NCBI GenBank assembly: GCA_036002485.1 | Contig: DASYTI010000175.1 | Coordinates: 1 to 61,438, forward strand | DNA length: 61,438 bases | Origin: Candidatus Methylomirabilota bacterium | GTDB lineage: Bacteria; Methylomirabilota; Methylomirabilia; Rokubacteriales; CSP1-6 | Direction of reading: 5' to 3' | Shown: positions 27,731 through 33,977 of the stretch, piece by piece | Numbering within the stretch: the stretch's first letter is position 1 | Layout of the letters: each line of letters begins with the position of its first letter | Program-made: the position numbers and the translations under genes | Notes under the pieces: model-generated | The model's input: only the letters and a program-made list of their open reading frames with translations | Databases searched by the model: none | Told to the model about the DNA's origin: nothing

Positions 27731-29179
27731 TCAGGAGAGGCGTGGCCCCACAATGATGTCATACAGGTGTCGCTGGCGCCTCATGGCGGCGTCGTACACG
27801 GCGTGGCGGCGCGCATCGGGCACGACCAGGCGGCCGGGCGGCAATGCGGGCGGCGCGGGCGCCCCGAGGGCCTCGATGGCCAGGAGCGCGGCTCCACGGC
27901 TCGAGGCCTCCGCCAGCGAGGAGATCTCCAGTGGCCGGCCCAGGACATCGGCCACGATGCGGGCCCAGGCCGGCGAGCGCGCGAGGGCGCCCCCGGTGGC
28001 GACGACGGTGTGGTCGGGTGAGGCCAAGGGGGCCAGGAGCTCGTAGACCGCACCCAGACGATAGGCCACGGCTTCGAGGAGGGCGCGGAGCAAGTCCGTC
28101 GCCGTGGTGGCGAGACCGAGCCCAGAGAGCGCGGCGCGCGCGTCCTCGTTCCAGCCCGGGCTCCTCTCGCCCGCGAGGAAGGGCAGCGCCGTGAGGCCGT
28201 GCTCATCAGGGGCGGCCGCGGTGAGAGCCTCCTCGACGGCTCCGTCACGCTCCGGCAAGGCAAGCACGCGACGCGCCCAGGCCCAGACATTGCCGCCTTC
28301 CGACGTCGCGCCGCCGACCAGGTGCCGGCGAGCGTCGATGCGATAGTGCCAGAGCCCCCCCGGCACGCGTGGCGCGGTGGGCGTCACGAGTCGGAGCGCG
28401 GCGGAGGTTCCGACATTGAGCGCGATGCGGTCGGGCCCCGTGCACCCCGAGCCGAGATTCGAGCAGGCGCCGTCTCCGGCAGCGGGCAGCCAGAGCGTCT
28501 TGTCGAGGGCCGGCCATCGGCGCCGCCATTCAGGCCGAAGGCCGCAGGCCGGCGCGTCGTCGATGGGCGGCCGCTGACGGGCCGTGACGCCCGAGGCCTC
28601 GAGCATGGCCTCATCCCAGACCGCGCCCGACTGATCGAGGAGTCCTGTGCCCGAGGCCATGGACAGGCTCGAGGCCAGCCGCCCCGTTATCCGCATCAGG
28701 AGATACTCGGCGAATCCGCAGACGGTGGCCGCGCGCGCGAGCAGCGCGGGATCTCTCTCGCGGAGCCAGGTCAGCTTGGCCGGGAAGAAGGTGGCGTGGA
28801 GCGGCGCCCCCGTGCGTGCGTGAATCGAGGCTTCGTCGAGTCGGGCGCGAAGCGTTCTGGCCGCCGCCGCGCTTCGGGTATCGGCCCAGGTGAATACAGG
28901 CGTGAGCGGAGCGCCTGCCCCGTCGAGGAGCAGGAGGCCGTGCCAGAAGATGGAAGCGCCAATGGCGGCGGGCGGCTCGCGGGCGGCGGCCAGGCATCGA
29001 TCGATGGTGTCGACCACCGCCTCCAGCAGGCGATCGGCGTCGAGCTCGGCCCCGCCCTCGGCGGTGAAGACCGGCTCATAGGCCACACTCGCGTCGAGGC
29101 CGGCCACCGGGCGGGCCGTCGCATCGTAACCGACGGCACGCGCGGAGCTCGTGCCCACATCCAGCGCCAGAACCCACAT
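27731..29179 (-). CDS. FGGY-family carbohydrate kinase, gluconokinase-like
   Basis: 482 aa. N-terminal phosphate-binding DVGTSSARAVGYD, IFWHGLLLLDGAGAPLTPVFTWADTR as in FGGY gluconokinases, and ATP-binding LNVGTSAALRLV and VATGGALARSPAWARIVADVLG. It should phosphorylate a sugar or sugar acid (gluconate or xylulose) with ATP. Its position 16 nt before the RpiB-Pgi fusion links it to pentose phosphate or hexose interconversion. ATG 29179 is chosen because a TATACC -10 box ends 6 nt upstream; longer frames would run through the divergent promoter region. Confidence 0.88.
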   Translation of the reverse strand: MWVLALDVGTSSARAVGYDATARPVAGLDASVAYEPVFTAEGGAELDADRLLEAVVDTIDRCLAAAREPPAAIGASIFWHGLLLLDGAGAPLTPVFTWADTRSAAAARTLRARLDEASIHARTGAPLHATFFPAKLTWLRERDPALLARAATVCGFAEYLLMRITGRLASSLSMASGTGLLDQSGAVWDEAMLEASGVTARQRPPIDDAPACGLRPEWRRRWPALDKTLWLPAAGDGACSNLGSGCTGPDRIALNVGTSAALRLVTPTAPRVPGGLWHYRIDARRHLVGGATSEGGNVWAWARRVLALPERDGAVEEALTAAAPDEHGLTALPFLAGERSPGWNEDARAALSGLGLATTATDLLRALLEAVAYRLGAVYELLAPLASPDHTVVATGGALARSPAWARIVADVLGRPLEISSLAEASSRGAALLAIEALGAPAPPALPPGRLVVPDARRHAVYDAAMRRQRHLYDIIVGPRLS

Positions 29180-29185
29180 GGGTGC

Positions 29186-29191
29186 GGTATA
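29186..29191 (-). promoter_or_regulatory. -10 box for the FGGY kinase operon, leaderless start
   Basis: TATACC on the minus strand, 6 nt before ATG 29179; no ribosome binding site is present. Confidence 0.45.
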
Positions 29192-29261
29192 TTCTGGGCT
29201 ACGCGGCGCGCGAGTGCGGCACGGATTTTTGCCGGCGCGCGAAGGAAAGAGAGGATCCCGG

Positions 29262-29474
29262 ATGGCGGAGCCCGAGTGGGAGCTGTTGACGGTGCAGGGG
29301 CTGTCCATGACCGACGAGACGGCTGCCGAGTTCGTCGGCACCTTCGTCATCCACCGGGCCGGCCACGCGGAGCCGGTCGAGCAGGTGCGGCTGCGCGTCA
29401 AGCGGAGCGTTCTCGAGGAGGTGTCGCGCACCCTGCAGCGTCTCCTCACGCGCTCCACACGGTTTTCCCGCTAG
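29262..29474 (+). CDS. Small conserved-looking hypothetical protein
   Basis: 70 aa, starting at ATG with GAGAGG about 8 nt upstream. Acidic N-terminal half (MAEPEWELLTVQGLSMTDE) and a basic C-terminal helix (LRLRVKR..., EEVSRTLQRLLTRS-like). No membrane segment or metal motif. It ends 19 nt before the selenoprotein start, so the two probably share a transcript. I do not recognise the family. The reverse-strand frame is the FGGY upstream shadow and is not favoured. Confidence 0.6.
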   Translation: MAEPEWELLTVQGLSMTDETAAEFVGTFVIHRAGHAEPVEQVRLRVKRSVLEEVSRTLQRLLTRSTRFSR

Positions 29475-29493
29475 TACCTATCGAGGAGCTTCC

Positions 29494-30024
29494 ATGGCCA
29501 TCATCACCGTGCTGAGCCCCGTGGGGGAGCTGAGGCAGGCGACCTTCGCGGTGCCGCCCCTGCCCGCGGACCTCCGTGGCCTTACCGTCGGCTTCGTGGA
29601 CAACACCAAGCACAACTTTGATCTTCTCGTCGAGGGTATGGCCGCCCTCCTGAAGGAGCGCTTCGGCGTCAAGGCCGTCATACACCGGAAGAAGGCCAAT
29701 GCCTCGACGCCCGCGGCCGACGAGATCATCGAGGGACTGGCCAAGGATTGCGATGTCGTCTTCGCCGGCTCGGGTGACTGAGGCTCCTGCACGTCGTGGA
29801 GTCTCCACGACTCGCTGGAGCTGGCCAAGCGCGGCACCCCCTCGGGGCTCATTGCCACCACCGTTTTCCAGGGGCTCGCCACGAGCGAGATGGCGGCCCT
29901 GGGCGCCACCGCCCTGCCGCTTCTGGTGGTGCAGCACCCGCTCGGCGGTGAGAAGCCTGAGGCCGTGAGCCGCCGCGCCCTGCAGGCCATCGAGCAGCTG
30001 GCGAGCCTGCTCGGCTCGGCGTGA
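29494..30024 (+). CDS. UGSC-motif selenoprotein (in-frame UGA = Sec)
   Basis: 176 aa if TGA 29779-29781 is read as selenocysteine (residue 96). The sequence across it is FAGSGDUGSCTSWSLHDS, the defining U-G-S-C motif of the UGSC (seleno)protein family. The frame continues with normal codon use for 80 residues to TGA 30022, ending with TTVFQGLATSEMAALG and VVQHPLGGEKPEA, both usual for the family. A hairpin with a 5-nt AGTCT loop begins 12 nt after the TGA. The U-x-x-C arrangement implies thiol/selenol redox chemistry; the substrate is unknown. No sel genes are in the window. A plain nonsense mutation would not explain the downstream family conservation. Confidence 0.92.
29793..29811 (+). promoter_or_regulatory. 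Bacterial SECIS-like hairpin for UGA decoding
   Basis: GTCGTGG, loop AGTCT, CCACGAC. The stem starts 12 nt after the UGA and the apical loop is about 19 nt from it, inside the 16-37 nt range accepted for bSECIS elements. The loop has G at position 2 followed by U, as in the SelB-binding loop of E. coli fdhF. It lies in codons for CTSWSLHDS. Confidence 0.85.
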
Positions 30025-30142: not shown

Positions 30143-32899
30143 ATGCGGCTCTCGCTCCTCGTCGTCTCGGCCGCTCTCTTCTTCTCGGGAGCGGCCGGGC
30201 TCGTCTATCAGGTCGTCTGGCTCCGCATGCTCGGGCTCGTCTTCGGCCACGCCGTGGACGCGCTCACTGCCGTGCTGGTCGCCTTCATGGCGGGGCTCGC
30301 CCTCGGCAGCGCGGTGGGCGGCCGGCTCTCTTCCCGCCTGCGCGCGCCGCTCGCGGCCTATGCCTGGCTCGAAGTGGGCATCGCGGTCTATGCCCTCGGT
30401 CTGCCCGCCGGGCTTCCCGCCCTCACCCGTGTCTCGCTGAGCGTTCGCGGCGCCCTCGGCCTCTCGTATGAAGGCTGGAGCCTGCTGCAGGTGGCGCTCG
30501 CCTTCCTCGTGCTGCTGCCTCCCACCGCGCTCATGGGGGCCACGCTGCCGCTGGTGTCCCAGGCCCTCGCCTCGGGCGGCGAGGCGCCCGGCCGTCGGGT
30601 GGGCGCCCTCTACGCGGTCAATACGTGGGGCGCGGTGACCGGGGCGCTCGCCGCCGGATACTTCTTGCTCCCCGCCATGGGCAATCGGGCAACCGTGTGG
30701 ATCGCTGCCGGCGCCAACATGGTGGCGGCGGCGCTTGCCTTCATCATCTCGCGCCGTCTCGAGCCGCGCTCTCCGCGTGAATCCGCCGTTGCTCCCTCCG
30801 CGGGCGAGACGTTCGGAGTGCGCCGCGGGCTGATTCCGGCGGCCATGGCGGTCTCGGGCGCGGCGGCCATGGTCTTCGAAGTCGCGTGGACGCGCGCGCT
30901 CTCGCTCCTCCTGGGAAGCTCGACGTACGCCTTCGCGGCCATGCTCCTCGCCGTGCTCGTGGGCCTGGCCACGGGCAGCGCGGTCTATGCATGGCGCTGG
31001 GGGAATCGGCTGGTCGGCCCGGCCGCCCTGGGCGTGATCCAGATAGGCGTGGGTGTCTCGGCCGCGGTCGTCCTGGCAAGCTTCGAGCGCTTCCCAGATG
31101 TGATTCTGGCCGCGCTCCGCATGTCCACGTCGCCCAGCTGGGTGGATCTCGTCGAGATTCTCGTGAGCGTCGCCGCTCTCACCATGGCGACGATTTGGAT
31201 GGGAGCGGCCTTTCCGTGCGCCATTGCCGCGGCGTCCGGAGGAGCTCGCGCCGGAATCAGGATAGGGCAGGGGGTGGGCCGCCTCTACGCCGCCAATACG
31301 GCCGGCGCCATTGTCGGCGTTCTCCTGGGCGGTCTCGTTCTCGTTCCCACGTGGGGGATTCACGGCGCGCTCAAGGTCGCCATCGTCGCCACCCTGGCTC
31401 TCGGCGGAGCGCTCCTCGCCGCCGGCCGGGGCTCGACCCTCCGGCGCGGGGTCGGGGCCGCCGCCGCGCTCTTGCTGGCCATGGGCGCCGCCTTCCTGCC
31501 GAGCTGGGATGCGCGCCTGATGTCGAGCGCTCCCGCCGTCTACGCTCGCAGCTATCTCGAAGCCGGGACCACCCGCCCCCTGCGAGAGCTCGTGGGAGGG
31601 CAGGAGGTCCTCTTCTATCGTGACGGACGCAGCGGCACGGTGGCGGTGACCCGACAGGGGGGCCACACACTCCTGCGCATCAACGGCAAGATCGATGCAG
31701 GCACCGTGGTGGACATGCCGACCCAGGTCATGGCCGCGCATCTCCCGCTGCTCGCGCATCCGGCCCCCAAGACGGTGTTCATCCTGGGCCTGGGCTCGGG
31801 CATGACGGCGGGGGCCACCGCGCGCCATCCCGTCGAGCGCGTGGATGTTCTCGAGATCGAGCCCGCCGTCATCGAGGCATCGCGCTTCTTCCGTGATTTC
31901 CACGGCGACGTCCTCCGCGATCCGCGTGTTCGCGCCATGGTCGGAGACGGGCGGAATTTCCTGCAAGCCTCGCCCGCGCGCTACGACGTGATCATCTCGG
32001 AGCCGTCGAATCCCTGGATGAGCGGGCTGGCCGCGCTCTTCTCGCGCGAGTTCTTCCGGCTCGCTCGCGAGCGCCTGCGGCCGGGCGGGGTGATGCTGCA
32101 GTGGGTGCAGAGCTACAACCTGGCCCCCGACGACCTCAAGATGGTGGTGGCCACCTTCCGGGAGACCTTCCCGGCCACGAGCATCTGGGAGCCGAGACCC
32201 GGCGACTTTCTGCTCCTGGGCCGGGTCGAGAAGGTGCCGCTGGACGCGCGCCGGCTGCGCGAGCGGTGGGAGACGGAGCCGCGAGTGCGCGCCGACCTCG
32301 AGCGGCTGGGGATAGGCAGCTGGGCGGGCGTGCTCGGCCTCTTCGTCCTGGGGGAAGAGGACACGGCTCGGCTGGCCGCGGGCGCGGGCGTCAACACCGA
32401 CGATCGATTGCCTCTCGAATTCGGCGCCCCCCGCGCGCTCTATCTCGAGACCTCGATCCCGAATCGCGCGATGGTCGCGTTTTTCCGGAGCGCCGACCTG
32501 CCCGCCTTGACCCCGGAGAGCGCGCCGTTGATGGAGCAGACAGAGAACCGGTACTGGACGGGCGTGGGCTGTCTCCGGCGCGCGGATCCCGCCTCGGCGC
32601 TCGCGCACTTCGAGCGGGTGCTCCAGCTCGATCCGACCCATGCCCCCGCAGCCATCGCGGCGGCTACCGCCGCGCTGCAGCTCGGTCATCCGGCCCCTGC
32701 GCTCGAGTTCGCGCGGCGGGCCCTCGCTCGGCAGCCTCCGCCGCCCGCGGCGCTCTTTCTCGCGGGTGTGGCGGCCTGGTGGCTCGGCCGCGTCCAGGAG
32801 GCGGGCGCGTATCTCGAGCGCGCCACCGCCCTCGAGCCGGGCAACGCGGAGTTCCGGGAGACGCTCCGGCGCTTCAAGAGCGGTACACTATCTCGCTGA
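30143..32899 (+). CDS. Fused MFS-like / spermidine synthase-like protein with TPR tail
   Basis: 918 aa. Residues 1-430 hold about 11-12 membrane helices in two halves, each starting with a related SGAAGLVYQVVWLRMLGLVFG / SGAAAMVFEVAWTRALSLLLG segment. Residues ~470-770 are a spermine/spermidine synthase-type Rossmann domain: FILGLGSGMTAGA, DVLEIEPAVIEASRFF, VGDGRNFL, IISEPSNPWMSG. Residues ~790-910 are TPR-like. Such fusions are widespread, and most are not proven polyamine synthases. Acceptor and product unknown; it may aminopropylate or methylate a membrane or secreted substrate. The next gene is 28 nt away on the same strand. Confidence 0.85.
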   Translation: MRLSLLVVSAALFFSGAAGLVYQVVWLRMLGLVFGHAVDALTAVLVAFMAGLALGSAVGGRLSSRLRAPLAAYAWLEVGIAVYALGLPAGLPALTRVSLSVRGALGLSYEGWSLLQVALAFLVLLPPTALMGATLPLVSQALASGGEAPGRRVGALYAVNTWGAVTGALAAGYFLLPAMGNRATVWIAAGANMVAAALAFIISRRLEPRSPRESAVAPSAGETFGVRRGLIPAAMAVSGAAAMVFEVAWTRALSLLLGSSTYAFAAMLLAVLVGLATGSAVYAWRWGNRLVGPAALGVIQIGVGVSAAVVLASFERFPDVILAALRMSTSPSWVDLVEILVSVAALTMATIWMGAAFPCAIAAASGGARAGIRIGQGVGRLYAANTAGAIVGVLLGGLVLVPTWGIHGALKVAIVATLALGGALLAAGRGSTLRRGVGAAAALLLAMGAAFLPSWDARLMSSAPAVYARSYLEAGTTRPLRELVGGQEVLFYRDGRSGTVAVTRQGGHTLLRINGKIDAGTVVDMPTQVMAAHLPLLAHPAPKTVFILGLGSGMTAGATARHPVERVDVLEIEPAVIEASRFFRDFHGDVLRDPRVRAMVGDGRNFLQASPARYDVIISEPSNPWMSGLAALFSREFFRLARERLRPGGVMLQWVQSYNLAPDDLKMVVATFRETFPATSIWEPRPGDFLLLGRVEKVPLDARRLRERWETEPRVRADLERLGIGSWAGVLGLFVLGEEDTARLAAGAGVNTDDRLPLEFGAPRALYLETSIPNRAMVAFFRSADLPALTPESAPLMEQTENRYWTGVGCLRRADPASALAHFERVLQLDPTHAPAAIAAATAALQLGHPAPALEFARRALARQPPPPAALFLAGVAAWWLGRVQEAGAYLERATALEPGNAEFRETLRRFKSGTLSR

Positions 32900-32927: not shown

Positions 32928-33977
32928 GTGTCCGATCCCGCGGCTGCCCTTGACCATCTCCAGGTCCCCGAAGACGAGGTCTACGCGGAGTTCGTCAAGC
33001 GCGACTGGTGCGACGGGCTGCCTATCGTGCCTCCCACCCAGGAGCGCGTGGCCGCCATGCTCGGAGGAGCCGATGCCTCCCGCGTGCTGGGTGTCATGCC
33101 TCCCCTCTGGCGCGAGGTGAGCGTGGGGAAGCTCGCCGTCAATGCCGTCATGGCCGGCTGCGAGCCCGCGTACTTTCCGGTGATCGTGGCGGCCGTGCGC
33201 GCCCTGCTCGAGCCGGCCTTCAACCTCTACGGCGTGCAGGCGACGACCCATCCCGTGGCGCCGCTCCTGATCGTCAGCGGGCCCGTCGCGCGGGCCATCG
33301 GCATGCATGCGGGATCCGGACTCTTTGGCCCCGGCTTTCGGGCCAATGCGACGATCGGGCGCGCCATCCGGCTCATCCTGATGAACGTGGGCGGGGGCTG
33401 GCCGGGGCGCCACGACATGGCCACCCAGGGCAGCCCGGCCAAGTTCTCCTTCGCCATCGCGGAGCGTGAGGACGTCTCGCCGTGGCTGCCCCTCCACGCG
33501 CGGCTGGGCTTCACGGCCGAGCAGAGCGTGGTCACCGTCTTCGGCGGCGAGGCGCCGCACAACGTCAATGATCACGTGGCCACCACCGCGGCGGGCATCC
33601 TCAACAATGTGGCCGACGTCGCGGCGACGCTGGGCTCGAATGTCGGCTGGTACATGGCCCAGAGCCAGCTCCTCGTCGTGCTGGGCCCCGAGCACGCGGC
33701 CACCGTGGCCGCCGACGGCTTCAGCGCCGCGGACGTGCAGCGCTTCGTGTTCGAGCATGCGCGCATCCCCCTCGGCCGGCTCAAGCTCGGCGGCATGTGG
33801 GGCATGCACGACTGGCCCCTCTGGATGCAGAAGGTCACGGACGAGGCCGCGCTTCTGCCCATGGTGCCCGCGCCCGAGGACGTATACCTGCTGGTCGGCG
33901 GCGGATCGGGCAAGCACTCCTGCGTCGTGCCCAACTGCTGCTTCAGCCGGGCCGTGAGCAAGGTCATAGAAGCATAG
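32928..33977 (+). CDS. Conserved protein of unknown function (DWCDGLPIVPPT family)
   Basis: 349 aa, GTG start with GGGAGGAG 5 nt upstream. N-terminal VKRDWCDGLPIVPPTQERV, glycine-rich GSGLFGPGFRANATIGRAI, GEAPHNVNDH, and a Cys-rich C-terminus CVVPNCCFSR. I do not know a function. I have the impression that related frames accompany UGSC selenoproteins in other genomes, and here it is 2.9 kb downstream of one on the same strand. Cysteines in WCDG and VPNCC would suit a redox partner role. The stop falls at the first base of the 68-bp tandem repeats. The link to the selenoprotein is inference. Confidence 0.7.
   Translation: MSDPAAALDHLQVPEDEVYAEFVKRDWCDGLPIVPPTQERVAAMLGGADASRVLGVMPPLWREVSVGKLAVNAVMAGCEPAYFPVIVAAVRALLEPAFNLYGVQATTHPVAPLLIVSGPVARAIGMHAGSGLFGPGFRANATIGRAIRLILMNVGGGWPGRHDMATQGSPAKFSFAIAEREDVSPWLPLHARLGFTAEQSVVTVFGGEAPHNVNDHVATTAAGILNNVADVAATLGSNVGWYMAQSQLLVVLGPEHAATVAADGFSAADVQRFVFEHARIPLGRLKLGGMWGMHDWPLWMQKVTDEAALLPMVPAPEDVYLLVGGGSGKHSCVVPNCCFSRAVSKVIEA

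Follow-up and report, generated by a model that had tools for sequence, protein, structure and literature searches.

Does a TGA in the middle of a bacterial reading frame end a short protein, or is it read as selenocysteine (Sec)? The question is raised by a gene in the window, the whole stretch of 61,438 nucleotides analysed here (contig DASYTI010000175.1 of the Candidatus Methylomirabilota assembly GCA_036002485.1, from a rokubacterium). The frame starts with an ATG at 29494, preceded by a ribosome-binding-like GAGGAG at 29483-29488, ends with a TGA at 30022-30024, and is broken by a single internal TGA, exactly where the UGSC family of selenoproteins has its U-G-S-C motif (GSGDUGSCTSW in the read-through product). 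Translation table 11 yields a 95-aa ORF, as the original prediction had said an annotator would call it. The literature has included UGSC selenoproteins since 2008 (Zhang & Gladyshev, PMC2398784), and with 63 selenoprotein genes predicted in a Methylomirabilota MAG (PMC13188914), a UGSC selenoprotein is to be expected in this lineage. The features of the locus are collected in Table 1.

Table 1. Features of the UGSC locus, in window coordinates
Feature	Position	Strand	Description and basis
UGSC-family gene, putative selenoprotein	29494..30024	+	176 aa, Sec is residue 96; sequence read directly, and family scores
In-frame UGA, Sec96 of the U-G-S-C motif	29779..29781	+	codon comparison, 131 homologous genes
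Bacterial SECIS hairpin	29793..29811	+	8-bp stem (29793-29800/29804-29811), loop GUC (29801-29803)
Membrane/spermidine-synthase-domain/TPR protein	30143..32899	+	918 aa; between UGSC and partner in the window
Partner gene	32928..33977	+	~348 aa, GTG start; homologue accompanies nearly every UGSC gene

The read-through product scored 159.9 bits with the Pfam model PF24696 (residues 6-174; cut-off 25 bits) and 126.3 bits with the NCBIfam model NF041046 (cut-off 125 bits), exceeding both curated cut-offs over its full length, while the 95-aa truncation by itself scored 72.8 and 44.7 bits, respectively. Because the truncated form scores so much lower, the approximately 80 residues past the UGA are family sequence and carry about half of the signal. 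The original prediction had given the single TGA at the U-G-S-C motif and the family-like sequence beyond it, and was exact in its coordinates. Immediately upstream of the UGSC gene is a 107-aa ORF (29151-29474) with no Pfam or NCBIfam match.

We compared the codon at the Sec column in 131 distinct UGSC genes, obtained from six-frame searches of relatives and from 80 loci fetched with a profile of the partner gene. The codon was TGA in 123 genes, a Cys codon (TGC or TGT) in seven, and another codon in one very divergent gene. Among the matches listed, each UGSC gene had a single internal stop, which was always TGA. The Cys-containing homologues that the original prediction proposed to align thus exist, and the contrary outcome it had named, homologues that all stop at residue 95, did not appear. 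The source genome itself holds six UGSC copies (contigs C73, C239, C251, C14, C175 and C206) with one UGA each; the five paralogues besides the window copy were absent from the earlier account. Substitutions 3' of the UGA were 15 synonymous to 1 non-synonymous against the close orthologue L102, and 19 to 8 and 20 to 8 against those of two congeners (L188 and L189). Judged from the aligned genes, protein-level purifying selection persists downstream of the UGA.

Some members of the alignment are unusual. Three variants (L140, L142 and L151; Nitrospinota, with L142 and L151 titled Betaproteobacteria or Bordetella) have the motif GHUGSS, in which Sec is retained and the resolving Cys is replaced with Ser; L142 has also lost most of the usual SECIS pairing. 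Two loci titled 'Bordetella parapertussis' (L121 and L151) are metagenome bins with a UGA-containing UGSC gene, and the species label looks doubtful. The haloarchaeon Natrialba asiatica (L114) has a Cys-form UGSC gene adjoined by the partner on the same strand, with SelB not over the cut-off.

The hairpin downstream of the UGA was compared with the published rules for a bacterial SECIS (bSECIS), which are a loop of 3-9 nt, a stem of 4-16 bp, a G in the first two loop positions, a distance of 16-37 nt from the UGA and a minimum free energy (MFE) of -7.5 or lower (PMC13188914). The window hairpin satisfies these rules with a 3-nt loop, an 8-bp stem, G first and a loop 19 nt 3' of the UGA; the 48-nt stretch from the UGA onward folds with an MFE of -25.7 kcal/mol (z = -3.3, with 1 of 200 shuffles equally stable). 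The location and the bSECIS fit were as originally predicted, but the predicted 5-nt loop with G at position 2 was not: the loop-closing A29800-U29804 also pairs, which leaves GUC. An Rfam scan of the whole window gave no match.

The hairpin is also a property of the family. Scored against synonymous-codon shuffles, 123 Sec genes had a mean z of +2.1, whereas seven control offsets in the same genes gave z of about 0, and the loop begins at exactly +19 in 106 of the 123. The seven Cys-form genes had no consistent hairpin under the same scoring. In 52 non-redundant sequences, 88% of cells were paired, against 19-50% when the partner strand was slid, and 27 cells were compensated on both sides versus 9.0±2.3 after shuffling, a count over related sequences and not a strict probability; the slid control points in the same direction. 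Given this covariation and the excess over synonymous shuffles, the window hairpin is not a chance structure.

The UGSC gene does not stand by itself. In the window a second gene, which the original prediction did not mention, starts 2.9 kb downstream, and in Rokubacteria 35 of 36 UGSC genes have a homologue of this partner as a neighbour. When partner genes of Rokubacteria, Chloroflexota, Acidimicrobiia, Proteobacteria, Nitrospinota, Binatia and one haloarchaeon were taken as the starting point instead, 74 of 80 had a UGSC gene at the locus; the six loci without it include two (L107 and L115) where the contig ends close to the partner. This near-obligate pairing is apparently new. In the paralogue on contig C14 of the source genome (L099), UGSC and partner are joined in a single open frame even when TGA counts as a stop. 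A search that read through stops flagged 31 such 'fusions', most of which may be no more than TGA terminators between genes; the check with TGA as a stop covers L099. The two genes are directly adjacent in most orthologues (L103, L105, L188 and L191-L195). The 918-aa protein lies between them in the window and also in L102; since it is missing from this position in most relatives, it is probably an insertion outside the UGSC/partner module.

The partner (~350 residues) had no Pfam, NCBIfam or PDB sequence match, and a Foldseek search with its model found no confident relative. The alpha subunit of a two-subunit class I fumarase was considered as a relative of the partner and rejected: this best Foldseek match, 7xky_A, had an E-value of 5e-4, but TM was 0.29-0.34, with an rmsd of 10.6 Å and 13% identity, too weak for homology. 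For the GOS selenoproteome, PMC2398784 (Fig. S1) records a UGSC/Unknown_1 fusion, a UGSC domain joined to a conserved uncharacterised domain, and Unknown_1 may correspond to our partner; the available text makes no mention of a pairing that holds almost everywhere.

A neighbour census of 114 ORFs counted TctC receptors 10 times and CoA-transferase III 6 times; these raw counts are suggestive of organic-acid catabolism, but TctC proteins abound in Betaproteobacteria. Near the Cys-form UGSC genes of Cupriavidus pauculus and Candidimonas nitroreducens, a CaiB-type CoA-transferase follows, and a thioredoxin reductase is found two genes downstream; a thioredoxin reductase neighbour occurs in just these two of the loci scanned.

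What kind of protein, then, is UGSC? One proposal is that it is a generic thioredoxin-like thiol:disulfide oxidoreductase with a U-x-x-C active site, the partner being either the protein it acts on or an enzyme with a loose connection to it. The UxxC motif and the thioredoxin reductase neighbours in two genera speak for it, as does the available text of PMC2398784, which gives the fold as 'likely Trx-like' along with the UGSC/Unknown_1 fusion. However, the AlphaFold2 model of UGSC (pLDDT 95.4) has alternating strands and helices in Rossmann/flavodoxin-like order, with Sec96 predicted to cap the N-terminus of the helix that follows strand 3. No thioredoxin was among the PDB matches listed by Foldseek; those listed were generic alpha/beta folds at TM of about 0.5, with no confident relative, and a PDB sequence search gave chance-level matches only. 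The predicted fold is not visibly thioredoxin, which argues against the 2008 suggestion. The profile match, too, is to a different protein, GrdB, and we regard the thioredoxin-like proposal as unlikely.

The UGSC profile aligned with the Sec domain of GrdB (protein B of glycine reductase) at a probability of 94.8% (hhalign, P 5e-8), with Sec on Sec, and still at 79.6% with nine motif columns masked, in one-to-one comparisons not corrected for a database search. Controls (the partner, GrdE, racemase and Sec-less GRDB) gave 0.2-3%, and the short PrdB-type GRDB relatives alone gave 10%. UGSC shares with GrdB and PrdB (glycine/sarcosine/betaine reductase B and D-proline reductase) a strand, the motif U-G-[ST]-[CS], a helix, 'E..GIPT' and '...HP.G', and the GRDB-family genes of relatives read through TGA ('...VILTST-UGTSTRCGA...' and '...VLLVAT-UGTCNRCGA...') in a resembling layout. 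On these profile comparisons, UGSC appears to be distantly related to the Sec domain found in protein B of glycine reductase, and this relation is apparently new.

The likeness is confined to that domain. GrdB and PrdB consist of PF07355 (GRDB) followed by the Sec domain, whereas UGSC is a single 176-aa domain: it had no PF07355 match, and comparison with the profile of the N-terminal half of GrdB gave 0.2%. A GrdE-type pyruvoyl neighbour was not found either: compared with GrdE (PF09338) members, the partner gave 0.03%. In the GrdB-like loci of relatives (L208-L213), PF07355 matches end just before the Sec codon, and in L208, L211 and L212 the frame stays open beyond the TGA and takes in the Sec domain, so that an annotator would cut these GrdB-like selenoproteins short as well.

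Decoding of UGA as Sec calls for the corresponding machinery in the source genome, and here the evidence is divided. In the draft assembly (4.45 Mb, 253 contigs, 95.7% complete), selA, selB and selC (tRNA-Sec) were not found on any contig. Candidate tRNA-Sec matches were rejected as ordinary tRNAs (Leu, Trp, Ser, Arg, Gly and others), and SelB-like matches as being under the cut-off, the best one lying within an IF-2-like protein. On the other hand, selD is present, is itself of the Sec type (CAGUASK) and has its own hairpin. A second SelD-like gene on contig C54 (L017, 310-2547) is fused to a pyridine nucleotide-disulfide oxidoreductase (TIGR03169 + SelD). Both SelB and tRNA-Sec score over the cut-off in three of the four congeners (G001, G002 and G004), with SelA confirmed beside SelB in G001, while the fourth (G003, 78% complete) has neither over the cut-off. 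Across the genome set, tRNA-Sec was found in 35 of 40 and SelB over the cut-off in 37 of 40; SelB was present in 17/17 Sec-form genomes versus 2/7 Cys-form genomes tested (Fisher p ~5e-4).

Alignment of the G001 sel region showed that contig C193 of the source genome begins, at base 84, in DNA that lies about 2.3 kb from tRNA-Sec in G001; this is the single flank of the cluster that was located, and C84, considered as the second flank of the gap, was rejected because it runs on into a different gene. An assembly gap is the simplest account of the missing selA, selB and selC, as C193 breaks where the cluster should lie. The original prediction held that this organism decodes Sec and named a genome devoid of sel genes as the result that would count against it: three of the four genes are not in the assembly and selD is, so that the prediction is supported by the congeners and by the organism's own Sec-type selD, and not by the machinery of the assembly itself.

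A true loss of selA, selB and selC, with the UGSC genes as decaying relics or read through by a near-cognate tRNA, would accord with selD being the only sel gene in an assembly of such completeness. Against this stand the six intact UGSC copies and the intact selD in the same assembly, the sel genes of the congeners and the contig end at the located flank, and we consider such a loss very improbable. That the gene encodes merely a 95-residue protein, is a nonsense pseudogene, or owes its TGA to a sequencing error of TGC or TGG would suit the table 11 ORF and the missing sel cluster, but is scarcely credible for a UGA found at the same codon in 123 distinct homologues and in all six source copies, followed by sequence under purifying selection and by a covarying SECIS. 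An Asp/Glu-racemase-like enzyme with Sec as acid/base, whose only likeness, a superficial one, is that a Cys follows a strand within an alpha/beta fold, can be dismissed at 0.2% in profile comparison with PF01177 members.

Taken together, the family scores, the codon alternation and the hairpin tests support the original prediction of a UGSC selenoprotein with a bSECIS. We propose, at a probability of about 0.88 and from sequence comparison, that the gene encodes a genuine UGSC selenoprotein whose UGA would be decoded via SelB, tRNA-Sec and the bSECIS, and which would act with the partner, since the pair stays together almost everywhere and is fused in L099.

It is also possible, at somewhat less than even odds, that UGSC is a one-domain relative of the GrdB/PrdB Sec domain with a reductive selenolate mechanism, by analogy with the glycine and proline reductases, in which the Sec of the GrdB-type domain has a part in the reductive cleavage of a C-N bond, dithiols being the reductant (PMC10298544). 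In such a mechanism, the selenolate at the helix N-cap would attack a small organic substrate, carboxylic or CoA-linked, that the partner holds, and reductively cleave a bond in it; Sec would be left as a selenenylsulfide with Cys99, which thioredoxin and thioredoxin reductase would recycle. The thioredoxin reductase and CoA-transferase near Cys forms and the organic-acid genes near others are hints of a reductive enzyme, while the Ser in place of Cys99 in L140, L142 and L151 counts against the mechanism. GrdB-type pyruvoyl chemistry is unsupported for UGSC, as the partner resembles neither GrdE nor any solved structure.

The UGSC gene is a new member of a known selenoprotein family in a lineage already reported to be rich in selenoproteins. 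It shares with the family the full-length match, the U-G-S-C motif, the bSECIS and the Cys homologues, and differs in nothing essential, although the window copy has a 2.8 kb gene inserted before the partner. What is added is the near-obligate unannotated partner, the relation to GrdB and the multi-copy expansion. More tentatively still, UGSC and its partner may form, as its two subunits, a selenol-dependent reductive enzyme that is widespread and undescribed, with a GrdB-derived catalytic domain and a new substrate-binding protein; on the same tentative reading, it would be present in at least six substrate-specific copies in one rokubacterium and range from Chloroflexota to haloarchaea. The Cys-form operons of cultured organisms (Cupriavidus pauculus, Candidimonas nitroreducens and Natrialba asiatica) make the ideas about the partner and GrdB testable without Sec chemistry.
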